IMG/VR virus record: IMGVR_UViG_3300006999_000188
Span: 1-37,222 of that record
Origin: a virus
Length of the DNA stretch: 37,222 nucleotides
Reading direction: 5' to 3' (one strand)
The number at the start of each line of letters is the position of its first letter. The first letter of the stretch is position 1. The translations under genes and the position numbers were made by a program. The notes under the pieces are model-generated. The model had not been told where the DNA came from. It did not search any database and saw nothing but the letters and a program-made list of their open reading frames with translations. This document shows, in pieces, positions 3,326-25,010 of the stretch.

Positions 3326-6091
3326 CTACCACCGGAACCCGTGGCTGCGGAGTTCGTCGGTGAAGCCCATCGCCGCCGCCTCACCCTCGGCGCGGCTGTT
3401 CGCGCGGACGACGACGCGCCCGATCTGCGGACCGCCCCCGCCGGTCATCTGGTCGAGCTTCGACAGCGGGATGACCGCCTCGGACTCGCCGCCCTCGCCG
3501 ACCATCGCGAGCGTCGGCGCGGTCACGATACCACCGGACGCGAGGCCGGGGACAGCGTCGGAGACGCCGCCCGCGACATCACCGGCGACGTCGCCGGCTG
3601 CGGACGCGGCGTCGGAGGCGGCGCTGGCCGCGCTCGACGCGGCGTTCGACGCGGCGGAAGCGGCGTCGGACGCCATCGACTTCGCCTTCGACAGCGCCGA
3701 GGACGCGGCGTCGACGGCGTCGTTCGCGCTCGACATGATGCTTCCGGCGATGGATTCGACGGTCGAGAGTGCGCCCTCGAACGTCGAGACGACCGTGTCG
3801 ACGGCCCCGCTGATAGCGCCCTTGAAGGCGTCGAGGGGGGCCATAATCGCGCCGGCGAGGTCGACGTTCCCGAGGAAACCGAGAACCTTCCCGAACATCT
3901 CGGGAATGTAACTCCCGAAGATTAGCCAGTTCCCGAAGTCCTTGAACGCCTGAATCGCGCCGTCGAGAAGGCCGCCCAGCCAGCCGAGGAACCGCGACCC
4001 CCAGTTCGCGGCGAACCGGTAGACGCCCCTGAGCGTCCGCTCGAAGAACCCCGCGATGAGGTTCCACGCGCGCTTCCAGTCGCCCTCCATCACGGCGGTC
4101 GTCGTCTTGATGAGCGTGACGAGTCCGTCGAGTAGCCAGCCGAGCGTCGAGAAGATGACGTCGGCGGCGAGCTCGACGACGGCGACGATCTCGTCGCCGA
4201 ACAGGTTCCAGGCCTTCGCCGCGATGCCGAAGAACCACCGGAAGATACCCATCAGCGTGTTCGCGAGCGCGGTGACGACGGTGATGACGACGCCAGCGAG
4301 CGTCCGGACGATGAACATGATGTCCTTTCCGTGTTGCTGCCAGAACGACCGGAGGCGCGTGAGAAGCGGCGTGATTATCTGCAGGAGCGTCGTCGCGAGG
4401 CCGAAGAACGTCGTCTGCACGAGGTTGACGTAGTTCCGGACGGTCGCGAAGACCTTCCCCGAGTGCGTCTGCCACAGCGTAAAGAGCATCCCGAGGGACT
4501 GCCGCGTCACCATCTGGACGATGGCGAACAGGTTCCGGACCGTCTTCGTAATCCGCTTCCGGTTCGCCGCCCAGAACGCTTCGACGCGCTTCAGCGTCGT
4601 CCGGTACAGGTCCTCGTAGAACTGTAAGCCCGCCGTCGCGACGGTCTGGATACCTCCGAACAGCGCGCTGACGTCGGCGATGACCGCCTTCCGGTTCCGC
4701 GACCACAGCGCCCGCATCCCTGTGAGCGCCGTCCGGACGCCCTTCGAGAGTTGCTGCATCGCCGGGAGGAAGACGGCCCGAAGATCGGTGACGAGTGCGT
4801 TGACGTGGCCGCGCATCCCCATGAAGTTCGTCGCGTACGCCGTCCCGAGCGCCGCGACCGCGCCGATGGCGAGGCCCAGCGGGCCGGAGATGAGCATCCC
4901 GACCGCGAGTACGAGGCCGCCGACGGCGCTCGCGGCGAGGCCGAACGCCTTCTGCTGGGCGGTCAGTTTGTTGATGAGCGAATCGCTCGACGTGAGGAAG
5001 TCGTTCACCGATTCGAGCGCGCGCGTGAGCGGCGGGAGTAGGACGTTCCCGATGGCGACGGCGTTCTCCCGAAGCAGGTTCTTCAGGATGGTCAGCTTCG
5101 AGTTGAACGTATCCGTCGCCGCGTCGAACTCTTTCTGCAGCGACGTCCCTTCCTCGAAGGACTGGTTCGCCATCCCGAGGGCTTCCCGCGCCCCGTCGAG
5201 GTTCTGGCTGAGGCCACCGAGCGCCTGCCGACTCGTCGTCGTCAGCGTCGACCGGAGGGCGTCGGCCTGCTCGCCGCCCTCTTTCATCGTCGACGCCATC
5301 TGCATGATGAGTTTCGACGGGTCGTTCTCCCGCATCGACCGGAACTCCTCGGTCGTCATCCCGAGGGCCGCCGCCAGGTCCTCGGTTTTCTTCGGGTTCA
5401 TCATCTCTTGGCCAACCCGGCGGAGGCGGGTGCCGGCGCGCTCGCTGGACTCGCTGACCTCGTTGAGCGCCGCCGACAGCCCGACGATCTCGGTGTTCGA
5501 CACACCGAGTTGGGACAGCGCCGCCGACGACCGCATCATCGAATCGATGATTTCCGACGACGACGTCGCGAAGTTGTTCGAGAGCTCGTTTACGGAACTC
5601 CCGAGGTTCTCGATCTTGTCGACGGGCGTGTTCGTCAGCGTCGCGAGACGGGCGAGCGATTCGCCGGCCTGCTGCGCGCCGAGGTCGGTCGCGGTCGCCA
5701 TCTTCGCGACCGTCTCGGTGAACGTCCGCAGGTTCTCCGGGCCGGTGATGCCGAACCGGGCGGCGTCCGCCGTCAGTGCGGCGAGTTCGGACTGCGCGAG
5801 CGGGATGGTCCTGGCCATCTCCATTATTTCGCCCGACATCGCGCTGGCGACCTCGGGGTTCGTTACCTTCTCGACTTCGACCATCGCTTGCTCGAAGTCG
5901 GCGGCGGCGTTGGTCGCGGCGGCGAGCGCGCCCGTACCGAACGCGGCGAGCGCGCCACCGGCGAGGCCGACGGCGTATTTGAACTTCCCGAGCGAATCGA
6001 TGGCCGAATCCATCGCGCCCGTGAAGCCGCCGACGCCGTCGGACTCGACCTTCACGGCCAGCGTCCGCTCCATACCGGGAGTGAATGCCAT
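3326..6091 (-). CDS. Tail tape measure protein
   Basis: 921 residues, the longest gene in the window. The N-terminal 350 residues match the TP901-type phage tail tape-measure domain: FEQAMVEVEKVTNPEVAS, the turn GITGPENLRTFTETVAKMAT and LGVSNTEIVGLSAALNEVSE are characteristic. Hydrophobic stretches follow at about 380-420 (LAASAVGGLVLAVGMLISGP), with more around 570-640, as usual for tape measures that insert into or cross the host envelope. Residues 780-860 are Ala/Ser-rich helical repeats. The length sets tail length; 921 residues would suggest a tail of roughly 130-140 nm by the common 0.15 nm per residue rule (inference). It begins 21 bases after the end of the frameshifted chaperone, the classic order. 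Confidence 0.95.
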   Translation of the reverse strand: MAFTPGMERTLAVKVESDGVGGFTGAMDSAIDSLGKFKYAVGLAGGALAAFGTGALAAATNAAADFEQAMVEVEKVTNPEVASAMSGEIMEMARTIPLAQSELAALTADAARFGITGPENLRTFTETVAKMATATDLGAQQAGESLARLATLTNTPVDKIENLGSSVNELSNNFATSSSEIIDSMMRSSAALSQLGVSNTEIVGLSAALNEVSESSERAGTRLRRVGQEMMNPKKTEDLAAALGMTTEEFRSMRENDPSKLIMQMASTMKEGGEQADALRSTLTTTSRQALGGLSQNLDGAREALGMANQSFEEGTSLQKEFDAATDTFNSKLTILKNLLRENAVAIGNVLLPPLTRALESVNDFLTSSDSLINKLTAQQKAFGLAASAVGGLVLAVGMLISGPLGLAIGAVAALGTAYATNFMGMRGHVNALVTDLRAVFLPAMQQLSKGVRTALTGMRALWSRNRKAVIADVSALFGGIQTVATAGLQFYEDLYRTTLKRVEAFWAANRKRITKTVRNLFAIVQMVTRQSLGMLFTLWQTHSGKVFATVRNYVNLVQTTFFGLATTLLQIITPLLTRLRSFWQQHGKDIMFIVRTLAGVVITVVTALANTLMGIFRWFFGIAAKAWNLFGDEIVAVVELAADVIFSTLGWLLDGLVTLIKTTTAVMEGDWKRAWNLIAGFFERTLRGVYRFAANWGSRFLGWLGGLLDGAIQAFKDFGNWLIFGSYIPEMFGKVLGFLGNVDLAGAIMAPLDAFKGAISGAVDTVVSTFEGALSTVESIAGSIMSSANDAVDAASSALSKAKSMASDAASAASNAASSAASAASDAASAAGDVAGDVAGGVSDAVPGLASGGIVTAPTLAMVGEGGESEAVIPLSKLDQMTGGGGPQIGRVVVRANSRAEGEAAAMGFTDELRSHGFRW

Positions 6092-6112: not shown

Positions 6113-6403
6113 TCAGTCGGCTGCTTTCTGGCGTTTGACGCGTTCGTCGAGCTCCTGCAGCTTCGCGCGGTCAGACTCCCTCGGCGTCGTCTTCCCGAGG
6201 GCGTCGTCGAGGTCGCCGTCGGGGCCGCTCGCGTTCCTTGCCTTCTTCAGTTCGTTCTGAATCTCGGCGTCGACGCGACGGCCTTCTAGGAGACGGCGAA
6301 TCTCGGGGTACGTGAGTGAGGAGATCGGCGGGTCGCCCGAGTACCGGTACCCCGCTTCGTGGAGTACCCACTCGGCGCGCGCCTCTAATTGCCAGTCTTC
6401 GTA
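6113..6403 (-). CDS. Tail assembly chaperone, frameshift extension (gpT-like)
   Basis: There is no start codon of its own. This frame is entered by a -1 shift at the slippery site 6403-6409 from the chaperone gene at 6385-6942 and adds 96 residues, ending at TGA 6113-6115. The added sequence begins YEDWQLEARAEWVLHEAGYR and includes DPPISSLTYPEIRRLLEG and a charged C-terminal helix (RAKLQELDERVKRQKAAD). The fusion would be 276 residues. In lambda-type tails the shifted form (gpGT) bridges the short chaperone and the tape measure. Coding quality is high over the whole segment, there is no other gene in the gap, and the tape measure follows after 21 bases. The residues 'EARAEW' and 'YPEIRRLLEG' look like genuine conserved protein, not junk. 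Confidence 0.85.
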   Translation of the reverse strand, partial: YEDWQLEARAEWVLHEAGYRYSGDPPISSLTYPEIRRLLEGRRVDAEIQNELKKARNASGPDGDLDDALGKTTPRESDRAKLQELDERVKRQKAAD

Positions 6404-6942
6404 TTTCCCTCAACCGCCTGGACGAGCTCGGCGTTCTCGCCGACCATGCCCATCTGGTACTCGAACCCGGAGGCGTTGTACCACGCGAGCAGGAGCGGCG
6501 TAATCCCGAACGCCTTGATGTCGTCGAGTTCCGACTCCGCCCGGGAGGTGTCGAGGTCCCAGTCTGGCTGGACGAAGAACCGATTCAGGACCTCCGCGAT
6601 CTGGCGGTCGTCCATGTCGTTCGGGTCGCCCGAGTCCGGGAGGTACCGGGTCGCGTCGCCCTGGCGGGCGGGGATGACCTGGACCCATTTCTGCTTCTGC
6701 GACCCGGGAATCGCTTCCCAGACGGGGAGGAGTTCGCCGTCGCCGTCGCGCTGCACCTCGAAGTCGTCCTTCGAGGCGACCGCGCCCTCGGGCGGACGGT
6801 CGCCGTCCCACGTCGAGGGGTCGGACGCGACGGGGTCCTGGTCGATGTCGTGCTCGAAGTCGTCGGCTTCGGCGGCGTCGACGTCGTCGGCGGTGTTGGT
6901 GGTCGATGCGTCTCGGTCGTCGGTCGAGTTGTCGGCTGCCAT
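6385..6942 (-). CDS. Tail assembly chaperone (gpG-like)
   Basis: 185 residues, unshifted product, TAG at 6385-6387. The first 60 residues are very acidic (MAADNSTDDRDASTTNTADD...). The folded part includes WEAIPGSQKQKWVQVIPARQ, DMDDRQIAEVLNRFFVQPDW and FGITPLLLAWYNASGFEYQM. It lies between the tail tube gene and the tape measure, the universal place for the G/GT chaperone pair. It would bind the tape measure and recruit tube subunits during tail assembly and be absent from the finished virion. A -1 frameshift near the last six codons makes a longer form. The family identity is inferred from position and the frameshift arrangement. Confidence 0.85.
   Translation of the reverse strand: MAADNSTDDRDASTTNTADDVDAAEADDFEHDIDQDPVASDPSTWDGDRPPEGAVASKDDFEVQRDGDGELLPVWEAIPGSQKQKWVQVIPARQGDATRYLPDSGDPNDMDDRQIAEVLNRFFVQPDWDLDTSRAESELDDIKAFGITPLLLAWYNASGFEYQMGMVGENAELVQAVEGNTKTGN
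6403..6409 (-). promoter_or_regulatory. -1 ribosomal frameshift site (G GGA AAT)
   Basis: Read on the minus strand in the chaperone frame, GAG GGA AAT contains the heptamer GGGAAAT with the X-XXY-YYZ spacing needed for -1 slippage. It lies six codons before the stop of the unshifted frame, and the -1 frame from here stays open for 96 codons to just before the tape-measure start. Confidence 0.85.
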
Positions 6943-7010: not shown

Positions 7011-8315
7011 TTACGCGACGCTCAGGCCTGCGGTCCCACCTCCCTCGGGGATGAACGTCTCGTCGATGCTCATCGTCGACTCCTCGGCTTCGTACGGCCC
7101 CAGTCCGGGGTCGGTGAGTTTCGCCGACGCGACAGTCAGCGTCCCGTTGCCGGTCGGGGCGTCCGGGAACGTCCAGACGATATCGCCGCCGACGTTCTGC
7201 AGCGCGCGCCGGGCGTCGGCGTACGACTGCGTCTCGCCCATCGTCGTCACGGACATCTCGGTGTCGCGGACGCCCTCGGTAATCCGCATCCGCAGCGAGT
7301 CGTCGCGGTTCGTCGTCCCGAGGTTGTTGTCGACCGAGAACTCCTTCGAGTTGATGTCGAACCAGTGGTCGCTACTCCCGTCGAGCGTAATCTCGTCGGT
7401 GAGCGTCCGGAGGAAGCTGGACCCGATGGCCGACGAGTGCGACCCGCTCCCGAGCGCGGGAACGCCGAGATCGCCTTCGATGCCGTCGTAGGAGTCCGCA
7501 CCCGGGATGACGGCGAGGAGTTCGCCGTCGACGGCGGGGTCGCCGTCGTAGACCTCGACGTCCCCGACCGTTTCGGCGCCGAGCGCGAGGGCGTCGATGT
7601 TGTCGAAGGACGCGGTCGTCGTCACCGCCGTGGTTCCGTTCAGACTCGCGTCCTCGGTGGACGTCGCGCCTTCGTCTTCGATGGTCAGCGTCTGCGTGGT
7701 GTCGACGTCGTCGGTCGTCTTGACGTGGAGCGTCGTCCCGGCGTCGGGCTGGTCGATCTGGATACGCCGCACCTTCTCGGCGTTGTGGACGACCTCGACG
7801 TTCGCGGGCTGCTGGTCGCCCGGGTCGACGGTGATGGTGACCTCGCCGACCTTCCCGCCGCGAACGACGGTGTAGATGCGCGTCTCCTTGCTGGTCGCCT
7901 GCGCGGGGTCGTTCTCGCGACCCTCGACGGTCGAGGCGGGCGCGACCTTCCCCTTCGACTCGCGGTCGACGATGGTGTGCGTGTTCGGCAGGAGGCCGTC
8001 AGCGTCCCGGAGTAGGCCGTCGCCGGCGAGGTCCGAGGGGTCACCGTTCTGGTCGACGAACCAGCGCTGGAGCGCGTACGCCTGCGTGAACTCGTGTTCC
8101 TCGGGTCCCTTGTCGTGTTCGGCGACGTCGGTGTCGCCGAGTCCTCGGTCGGCGGTCAGGCCGGGCGTCGGCCCCCACTTGACCGAGTACATTCGGTCGC
8201 TCGGGCGTTCCCACGCGGGCTCGCTCGGGGTGACCGGGTCGCCGTTCGCGTCGACGTCCTCGCGGACGAACTCGACGCGGTGGTCGCGAAGCCCGGATTC
8301 CTGTCGGGCGGGCAT
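7011..8315 (-). CDS. Major tail tube protein
   Basis: 434 residues, starting MPARQESGLRDHRVEFVRED. The N-terminal part (YSVKWGPTPGLTADRGLGDT) and C-terminal part (SMTIDE-like close SMSIDETFIPEGGGTAGLSV) look like the beta-rich tail-tube fold. The centre (about 150-270) has an inserted beta domain with EVTITVDPGDQQPANVEVVH and TLTIEDEGATSTEDASL, likely a surface-exposed Ig-like or decoration domain. The length is long for a siphovirus tube protein (often 150-250), explained by this insertion. Order supports the call: connector genes upstream, chaperones and tape measure downstream. No sheath-sized neighbour is present, which argues against a myovirus. It would polymerise into the tail tube. 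Confidence 0.8.
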   Translation of the reverse strand: MPARQESGLRDHRVEFVREDVDANGDPVTPSEPAWERPSDRMYSVKWGPTPGLTADRGLGDTDVAEHDKGPEEHEFTQAYALQRWFVDQNGDPSDLAGDGLLRDADGLLPNTHTIVDRESKGKVAPASTVEGRENDPAQATSKETRIYTVVRGGKVGEVTITVDPGDQQPANVEVVHNAEKVRRIQIDQPDAGTTLHVKTTDDVDTTQTLTIEDEGATSTEDASLNGTTAVTTTASFDNIDALALGAETVGDVEVYDGDPAVDGELLAVIPGADSYDGIEGDLGVPALGSGSHSSAIGSSFLRTLTDEITLDGSSDHWFDINSKEFSVDNNLGTTNRDDSLRMRITEGVRDTEMSVTTMGETQSYADARRALQNVGGDIVWTFPDAPTGNGTLTVASAKLTDPGLGPYEAEESTMSIDETFIPEGGGTAGLSVA

Positions 8316-8591: not shown

Positions 8592-8799
8592 CGTAGGTGT
8601 CTCGTTGGGTAGCCGCTCCGCTGTGCGGCTGTAGCGGGCAGAGTAGCCGCCGGGTTCCTTCGGCGGGCGAGGTAGAGTCGGACGGTTATCTTCCGTCCGC
8701 CGCCCCGCGCGTGGAGCTCGAGGCGGGTTCGTACCTGCGAAGTTCGCTCGAACGAACGCGTTCGCTCGAACGAAACCCGGGGTGTCTGCCCGGGAACGG
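8592..8799. promoter_or_regulatory. Intergenic region with 14-bp palindromes
   Basis: 208 bases without a convincing gene. It contains TTCGTACCTGCGAA (8728-8741), TTCGCTCGAACGAA (8743-8756) and a second identical copy (8761-8774), 15 and 18 bp apart. Because this is the only long gap inside the tail/connector block, it is a candidate operator or processing region for the downstream tail genes. I see no strong TATA box. Confidence 0.45.
8728..8774. repeat. Three 14-bp palindromic elements
   Basis: Two perfect copies of TTCGCTCGAACGAA, 18 bp apart, plus one degenerate copy. The same element, in the form TTCGTTCGAGCGAA, recurs at 16546, 20506 and 26408. Confidence 0.8.
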
Positions 8800-9644: not shown

Positions 9645-9992
9645 CTACTTCACCCGCGTCGCTTCGATGCTCGCGCGGAGTCGCCCGGTGTCGACGGGCG
9701 CGCGCTTCTTCGCCTCGCGTTCGATGGCGAGGGCGACCTTCCGAACCATCTCGTCGACGGACCCGACCTGCCCGACGTGCTGGCCGGGCGACCGGGAGAC
9801 GCGCTTCGCCGCCGGGAACAGGTACGGCTGGGCTTTCATCCGTGACGTCCCGAGCTCGACGTACGCGGCGTACTCGACGTTCGTCCCGACGATGTACACC
9901 GCGTCGCCGTTCTCGGGCGCGCCGAACTCCCGCTTCAACTGGCGGAACGCTGCGCGCGCACCGGCGTGGCCGGCGAGGGACATCCCGGTCAT
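9645..9992 (-). CDS. HK97 gp10-like tail completion protein
   Basis: 115 residues. It contains the two signature pieces of the HK97-gp10 family: EYAAYVELGTSRMKAQPYLF (about 39-58) and KKRAPVDTGRLRASI (about 95-109). In most family members the 'APVDTGxLRxSI' piece precedes the 'YxxYVExGTSRMxAQPFL' piece. Here the order is reversed, so the domain looks circularly permuted. The protein would act in head-tail joining or tail completion. It lies between adaptor and stopper genes, with its stop next to the ATG at 9644. The family call is strong; the effect of the reversed order is unknown. Confidence 0.85.
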   Translation of the reverse strand: MTGMSLAGHAGARAAFRQLKREFGAPENGDAVYIVGTNVEYAAYVELGTSRMKAQPYLFPAAKRVSRSPGQHVGQVGSVDEMVRKVALAIEREAKKRAPVDTGRLRASIEATRVK

Positions 9993-23037: not shown

Positions 23038-23380
23038 CGCGACCTCCCTCGGTGAGTTCGTCGATGACCGCGTCGACGTCGAGGTCGTCCGCCCGGGGGA
23101 CGGCGACGATGTTCTCCCCGGCTTCGTCTCCCGCTCGGAGACGTCCGCCGGAGCGTCGGTACCGGATGAGCGACCCGTTCTCGAACTCCAGGTGCGAGAC
23201 GTAGCCGCTCGGGAGGTCGGCGCGGTCGACGCTCGCGGGGATGCCGAGGGTTCCGTGCTTGAAGATCGACGCGACGCCGCCGGCGTCGACCGGGGCGCGC
23301 TCGCGAGCGTCGTCCTCCAGGTCGGCGGCGACGTCGGCGACGGCAAGCCGGAGTGCGTCGAGGACGTCGTCGTCAGTCAT
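23030..23380 (-). CDS. Unknown protein
   Basis: 116 residues, starting MTDDDVLDALRLAVADVAAD. The N-terminal 30 residues are helical, with ERAPVDAGGVASIFKHGTLG, then SGYVSHLEFENGSLIRYRRS, which looks like strands. The early 'RAPVDAGG' recalls the 'APVDTG' turn of gp10-like proteins, but the rest does not follow. It overlaps the neighbouring genes at both ends by eight bases, as expected in an operon. Function unknown. Confidence 0.6.
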   Translation of the reverse strand: MTDDDVLDALRLAVADVAADLEDDARERAPVDAGGVASIFKHGTLGIPASVDRADLPSGYVSHLEFENGSLIRYRRSGGRLRAGDEAGENIVAVPRADDLDVDAVIDELTEGGRDV

Positions 23381-23750
23381 CGCCCCCTCCTGCCCCGACG
23401 TCGTCGCGTCCGGTCAGGACGACGTGGAGGGTCATCTCGTGGACGGTATCGCTGGTGTCGACGTCGAGGCCGAACCCGGCCAGCCCGAGGAGTTCGTACC
23501 CGGCGTTCTCGACCTCGCCCTCGACGGCGTCCCGGACGCGGGACGGGAGTTCGTAGAACCCCTGGTTCGCTCGGACGAAGTTGTCGTAGATCGTATCCCA
23601 GGCGAGGTTCGACACCTCGACCTCGGCGGGGACTTCCGCGCCCGGCGTCGCGAGCGTCGGGAAGTTCGTCAGCGCGGCGTCGATGGTCGGGATGTCGGCG
23701 TCGGTTTCGGGGGTTCGCTCGGTGTCGTCGGTGGTAGTGTCTGAGGACAT
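23373..23750 (-). CDS. Unknown protein downstream of methyltransferase
   Basis: 125 residues from ATG at 23750 (MSSDTTTDDTERTPETDADI). It can also be read as the C-terminal part of a 545-codon frame beginning in the methyltransferase, but that join exists only because of a one-base loss at about 23871. The ATG follows the expected methyltransferase stop (23755-23757) by four bases, so I treat it as a separate gene. Distinct parts: VEVSNLAWDTIYDNFVRANQ (about 58-77), ELPSRVRDAVEGEVENAGYE, and VHEMTLHVVLTGRDDVG. Unknown family. FVRANQ is encoded by a near match to the 14-bp palindrome. Confidence 0.65.
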   Translation of the reverse strand: MSSDTTTDDTERTPETDADIPTIDAALTNFPTLATPGAEVPAEVEVSNLAWDTIYDNFVRANQGFYELPSRVRDAVEGEVENAGYELLGLAGFGLDVDTSDTVHEMTLHVVLTGRDDVGAGGGDD

Positions 23751-23754
23751 GGGT

Positions 23755-25010
23755 TTATGCGTCGGTATGCGGGCCGCCGTCTGGTCGAGTGGCGGTGTTC
23801 TCGGCCCCGTCGTCGTCGCCTGATTTTCGCGCGCCGAGGGCTTCGGCGATGCGGCGTTCGATGACTGGGCATAGTTCTCCCGGTCGATCTCGAAGCCGAT
23901 GTACTCGCGGTCGAGGTCGACGGCGGCGACAGCGGTCGTCCCGGAACCCATGAACGGGTCGAGTACGAGGCCACCCGGGTCGGTCGCCTGCGTTACGAGG
24001 TTCGAGATGAGGCCGACGGGTTTCTGCGTCGGATGCTCGTACTCAGTCCGAACGGGCCGGGGGTATTCGAGAAGGTTCCGCTGCGCGTGTTCGAGACGTC
24101 GGGGACGGTCGTCTTCGGTGGTCGCGAAGATGATGAACTCGGTCGAGTACCCCCAGTTGTTCGTGTTATCCCCGATGCCCATCGATTCCTTATCCCAGGT
24201 TATCACGTTTTTGACGTCGAGGTGACGGTCGACGACGGGCTTCACGGCGTCGATGCCCCGCCAGTCGCAGAAGAAGTAGGCGTGCCCGCCGGGCTTCAGG
24301 ACGCGCGCGGCCTGGGCGGTGACGTCGTCGATGAGTTCGACCGCGTCGTCGACGGACTGGTCGCCGTCGATGGCGTCCCAGGCCTTGACGCGGTCGCCGG
24401 TGTCGTGGGCGTCGGTGTTCGACCCTTCGTGGAACGCCATCCCGTACGGCGGGTCGGTGACGACGGCGTCGACCGAGTCGTCGTCGAGGCGGGTTCGGAT
24501 GCCGTCGACGGCGTCCTCGAAGTAGACCGAGTGGTCGACGTCGTACTCGTAGGCCGGGGGGACCGAGCGGTCGCGTTCGAGCTCGGCGAGGATGTCGTCG
24601 AGGTCTTCCTCGGCGGCCCGGGCGAGTTCCTGCAGTTCGTCGTTCCGTCCGCCCTTCAGGATGGCGTCGTAGTCGATGGCGTCCCGCGTCCGGTCGTGGG
24701 TGCCGCTTATCTTGTTCAGTTCCTGGCGGTACAGTCGTCGTTCGGCGTCGTCCTCGAAGTCGACCTGGACGACGGGGACGTCGGTCAGCCCGAGTTCCTT
24801 CGCTGCTCGCCACCGGTGCTCGCCGTCGGCGATGAGGCCGTCGGTGTCGGTGACTATCGGGCCGCCGACCCACCCGCGTTTACGGATGCAGTCGACCAGC
24901 AGGCCGAACTTCTCGTCGGTCATCTCGTTGGGGTTCTCGCCGTCGACGAACAGTTCGTCGGTGGCGATCTCGCCCTCGAAGGCCGGTTCTGGTAAGTCGT
25001 CGAGTTTCAT
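23755..25010 (-). CDS. ParB-like/DNA methyltransferase fusion, with apparent frameshift
   Basis: The N-terminal domain (about 1-110) is ParB/sulfiredoxin-like: GENPNEMTDEKFGLLVDCIR, IVTDTDGLIADGEHRWRAAK ('GEHRWRAA' is diagnostic). The second domain is an amino-methyltransferase with DAVVTDPPYGMAF before VLDPFMGSGTTAVAA, so the catalytic motif precedes the S-adenosylmethionine motif (beta-class order, N6-adenine or N4-cytosine). Intact proteins of this kind end near FEIDRENYCPVIERRIAEAL. Here the reading frame breaks after ENY at about 23871: the -1 frame continues CPVIERRIAEALGARKSGDD to TAA 23755-23757, while the zero frame runs on into the next gene. One base (probably a T of TATTGC) seems lost. 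It would modify viral DNA against host restriction. All catalytic parts precede the break, so activity may remain. Confidence 0.9.

Follow-up and report, generated by a model that had tools for sequence, protein, structure and literature searches.

The predicted chaperone locus and its candidate frameshift site

The window analyzed here is a whole 37,222-nucleotide stretch of viral DNA (IMG/VR virus record IMGVR_UViG_3300006999_000188, positions 1 to 37,222), in which a small tail assembly chaperone-like open reading frame (ORF), hereafter G, is followed on the minus strand by an overlapping T-like extension in the -1 frame and then by the gene for the tape measure protein. The overlap holds a heptamer of the X XXY YYZ type, and the site is defined by the following features:

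6942..6385, minus strand: G-like tail assembly chaperone ORF in the 0 frame (185 amino acids [aa], predicted isoelectric point 4.05), with a TAG stop
6412-6410, minus strand: TGA in the -1 frame that abuts the heptamer on its 5' side and sets the 5' limit of a shift
6409..6403, minus strand: slippery heptamer G GGA AAT, of which GGGAAA is invariant in 26 loci
6387-6385, minus strand: TAG that terminates the 0 frame 15 bases past the heptamer and sets the 3' limit of a shift
6402..6113, minus strand: T-like extension in the -1 frame (hereafter T), conserved and under purifying selection in relatives

The arrangement described in an earlier note on this DNA is confirmed, all of its points being accurate to a base. 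The 3' end of the 0 frame reads GTT GAG GGA AAT ACG AAG ACT GGC AAT TAG on the minus strand, which places GGGAAAT at 6403-6409 in slippery phase, as had been stated, and shortly before the chaperone stop, with five sense codons between the two. After its TGA, the -1 frame reads GGG AAA TAC GAA GAC TGG CAA TTA GAG and stays open to a TGA at 6115-6113, i.e., for 98 codons from the heptamer or, without the two slip codons, for the 96 codons originally counted, and it contains no ATG, GTG or TTG. The extension does end just before the tape measure gene as claimed, but the gap between its end (6113) and the tape measure ATG (6091) is 21 bases rather than 22.

Given the TGA at 6412-6410 and the TAG that ends at 6385, a shift is confined to 25 bases, from 6409 to 6385. 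The late genes of the window (2522 codons) use GGA 13 times and AAT and TTA twice each, and the expectation for an in-frame G GGA AAN is ~1.3e-4 per codon position, or ~1e-3 over the ~8 positions that permit a shift. No second in-frame copy occurs in the 2508 codon positions of the window late genes outside the chaperone gene. The heptamer stands at the sole place where a slip could act, which is unlikely by chance, and the relatives remove the remaining doubt.

Conservation and selection among relatives

Searching viral and genome collections with single proteins returned no close relatives, and we therefore used the neighboring tail gene and the tape measure as queries; scanning with these two reached homologous sites in several dozen further viral contigs. 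A plasmid search gave no match. G homologs are 42-57% identical in the closest viral contigs and 49-50% identical in Halorubrum virus Hardycor1, whose extension shares 54% identity with that of the window in a tblastn match that starts exactly at the heptamer.

Overall, G GGA AAN was found at the homologous place in 26 loci (window and the isolates Hardycor1 and HATV-3 included, as well as a few near-duplicates, L023/L032 and L022/L028). It is always in the 0-frame phase, the small ORF that precedes the tape measure gene ends 0-36 bases after it, and the extension that follows is in the -1 frame in all 26. Its last letter may be T, C, A or G, but GGGAAA never changes. The window and the six loci most closely related to it (L002, L003, L004, L008, L018 and L019) do not differ in the full GGGAAAT or in the 15-base distance that separates it from the G stop; the G stop in six of these seven is a TAG inside the TTA GAG or TTA GAA of the extension, and in L019 it is a TGA, from CTG AGG, at an equal distance from the heptamer. 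GGGAAAT is kept in these closest relatives despite near-saturated synonymous sites in most pairs, and it is made of minority codons in the window and its closest relatives (GGA is 2-13% of Gly codons and AAT 2-15% of Asn codons, or 42% in L008). In the window-like group, the heptamer marks the beginning of residue conservation (GK.E.WQLEAR). In place of G GGA AAN, A AAA AAC or A AAA AAG occurs in five other contigs, which probably come from different hosts. The length of the extension can differ: in L054:5111-5803, the -1 extension after G GGA AAC has 231 codons and is over twice as long as usual.

Evolutionarily, non-synonymous (dN) and synonymous (dS) substitution rates, computed only over the part of the extension past the G stop, were 0.010 and 0.282 for the pair L003/L004, and 0.073 and 2.1 for L008/L018. 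For comparisons of the window with its relatives, synonymous sites are near saturation, yet third-position changes of the -1 frame are in excess. The extension is a real protein under purifying selection, as seen in the two close pairs, which bears out the impression recorded in the earlier note; the alignment of related haloviruses suggested there as a check found both the conserved heptamer, in the 26 loci, and purifying selection on the -1 frame.

A predicted G/GT pair and its alternatives

We propose that the locus encodes a G/GT-type chaperone pair that would be made by -1 ribosomal frameshifting at G GGA AAT, a reading to which we give a probability of about 0.93. The programmed frameshift suggested previously is thus upheld as a prediction, with support from the sequence and phase of the heptamer, the frame relation, the stop spacing, conservation, selection and gene order. 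Slippage itself, how often it would happen and what G and GT would do are inferred from lambda and from published predictions. Under this model, the majority of ribosomes would stay in the 0 frame up to the TAG at 6387-6385 and produce the 185-aa G. A minority, with the transfer RNAs (tRNAs) for GGA (Gly) in the P site and AAT (Asn) in the A site, would slip one base back, re-pair with GGG AAA and go on translating in the -1 frame. The product would be a 276-aa GT fusion of ~30.8 kDa with the junction AVEGN/YEDWQL or, should only the P-site tRNA slip, VEGK/YEDWQL. By analogy with phage lambda, the tape measure protein may be coated by G while the tail tube protein may be recruited by the T part, and the G:GT ratio would depend on how often ribosomes slip.

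Alternatively, the extension could be translated as a protein of its own, after re-initiation or with a non-standard start codon past the G stop. Stop-start coupled overlapping genes are common in viruses, the Hardycor1 annotation has a separate HrrHc1_115, and in one relative (L015) a GTGATG spans the G stop. However, the lack of ATG, GTG and TTG in the window extension recurs in L030 and L047, the first start codon of any window-like relative comes at extension codon 30 or later although conservation in this group starts at the heptamer, and a separate start leaves the invariant heptamer unexplained, so that we regard this alternative as very improbable. Slippage of RNA polymerase on the template, rather than of the ribosome, would yield an identical protein and would likewise require short runs; the runs here comprise no more than three G and three A, and what is conserved, a slip over two codons in the phase of the ribosome with a variable last letter, fits X XXY YYZ, which makes this option slighter still. 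Finally, a single gene split by a genuine or sequencing indel, which in a lone assembly would look alike, is already refuted by the same arrangement and heptamer in independently assembled contigs and isolate genomes, and its probability is negligible.

Four points weigh against the proposed G/GT frameshift. First, the GT fusion product is a prediction from the sequence. Second, neither G nor T matches any curated chaperone family (Pfam, PHROG), and the G fold matches to named tail assembly chaperones are several but weak, and all below significance. Third, no conserved or unusually stable downstream RNA structure was found by single folds and a seven-sequence consensus, which cover simple structures only. 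Fourth, a set of distant relatives (L015, L020, L025-L027, L029, L033 and L042) has no X XXY YYZ at the end of G.

Regarding the protein folds, the predicted model of G (mean predicted local distance difference test score of 75, i.e., moderate confidence) begins with a small sheet of two strands, after which come helices. Its fold search gave two significant matches, whose length and identity make it probable that they are the homologs from Hardycor1 and HATV-3; there was no match of the G model to the PDB, nor any for the T model in its fold search. It is mainly the order of the genes and the arrangement of the frameshift that point to a chaperone. As a separate observation, the G of two relatives (L008:4498-5022 and L018:7269-7793) has, in the loop that follows IPG, an inserted zinc ribbon of the DnaJ CxxCxGxG type (Pfam DnaJ_CXXCXGXG, E 1.5e-4, matched by 2 of 16 members), which is absent from the window G.

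As for RNA signals, the downstream fold search recommended earlier yielded no consistent signal: the 100 bases downstream of the window site have a z-score of -0.20 against shuffles, only the L008 and L018 downstream folds come near -2 (-2.1), and the seven-sequence consensus fold (-2.68 kcal/mol) is without covariation support. Upstream, inspection of the loci by eye only gave no consistent Shine-Dalgarno-like motif. For a G/GT-type frameshift, a downstream structure is optional; here a stimulator is either unneeded or something other than a simple conserved hairpin.

Relatives lacking the heptamer had been named in the earlier note as a finding that would speak against the frameshift. Such relatives do occur, among the distant ones (L028 lies outside this set as it has GGGAAAT), but they leave the case of the window unrefuted because they still hold the extension in the -1 frame, and those of L020 and L033 are additionally without any start codon. 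Their G-stop junctions read ACT CCC TAG (L033:7263-7800), GAG ACG TAG (L020:5190-5300), AGT CCC TGA (L025:5190-5270) and CAG GCG TAG (L042:5720-5800). At L015:7690-7730, a GTG and an ATG in the extension frame overlap the G stop (AAG TGA TG), and L015 may restart at this GTGATG instead of shifting frame. On a tree of the neighboring gene, which has long branches that are possibly misplaced, the lack of a heptamer takes three changes, and well-supported branches force two of these. It is tempting to speculate that the heptamer was replaced more than once in haloarchaeal tailed viruses by another kind of recoding signal located at the G stop, which we consider doubtful; candidate replacement signals are AGT CCC TGA and ACT CCC TAG (L025-L027, L029 and L033), and none is recognizable in L020 and L042. 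If true, this would mean a second, stop-linked -1 mechanism on archaeal ribosomes, one that concerns the relatives, as the window has an ordinary signal.

Known systems and gene neighborhood

The tail assembly chaperone frameshift is reportedly conserved in tailed phages, as Xu, Hendrix and Duda are said to have described in 2004 (lambda gpG/gpGT). The window resembles lambda gpG/gpGT in having two frames that overlap just before the tape measure gene, the second in -1 phase, and differs from lambda and other phage chaperones in that no Pfam or PHROG link connects them to its G or T and that its probable host is archaeal. The last heptamer letter also differs, T in the window vs. G in the phage system, and in E. 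coli G GGA AAG is reportedly very prone to shifting.

Among haloarchaeal viruses, a frameshift with an identical G GGA AAT was already proposed for Hardycor1 in 2021 (PMC7911831). Its HrrHc1_110/115 pair is like that of the window in the heptamer, the place before the tape measure gene and the 15-base spacing to the G stop, and unlike it only in sequence divergence and in a -1 frame that is open far upstream. For HVTV-1 and HCTV-1, -2 and -5, a -1 shift of the chaperone pair was reportedly proposed in 2013 (Pietila 2013; Sencilo 2013, cited in PMC5009743 and PMC8211752); by description, these viruses are like the window in having a -1 shift in a haloarchaeal siphovirus chaperone gene. The HF1-group haloviruses also have a chaperone pair between the tail tube and tape measure genes, but there a +1 shift without a conventional slippery sequence has been reported (PMC7230728). 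Reviews word frameshifting in haloarchaeal viruses as "appears" or "very likely", and the only archaeal -1 frameshift shown by experiment is that of the Saccharolobus solfataricus fucosidase (2021 review, PMC8211752).

The window is thus a well-supported but ordinary new example, and the -1 inference itself is not new. What it adds to the few predicted archaeal -1 frameshifts is a clear case and a broad comparative set, and the 26 loci amount to ready reporter constructs for haloarchaeal slippage (spacing 0-36; Z = T, C, A or G). Annotation is affected as well, since gene callers that require a start codon will pass over an extension that lacks one.

The two genes that flank the G/T pair are:

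6091..3326, minus strand: tape measure protein, 921 aa (PHROG 28, E=5.2e-52; Pfam PhageMin_Tail, E=2.6e-22)
7011..8315, minus strand: conserved gene 5' of the chaperone, whose position makes it a probable tail tube protein (phrog_34360, E=2.8e-91, function unknown)

The N-terminal 366 aa of the tape measure protein are 60% identical to the Hardycor1 Tmp, and homologs of the 7011..8315 gene precede the G/T pair in other viral contigs too. Farther upstream lie a neck or tail-completion-like protein (9645-9992), then a major head protein and a head maturation protease, and beyond these a head morphogenesis protein, portal and terminase. The window comes from a virus record and has a G+C content of 67.5%; a haloarchaeal host is the natural inference, because the nearest named relative is Halorubrum virus Hardycor1. 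The single tRNA prediction, a tRNA-Asp at 8652-8747, was judged spurious, being antisense within coding sequence. Elsewhere in the window, 23373-25010 (minus strand) encodes a fusion-like protein with a ParB-like nuclease match in its N-terminal part and a DNA methyltransferase match in its C-terminal part.
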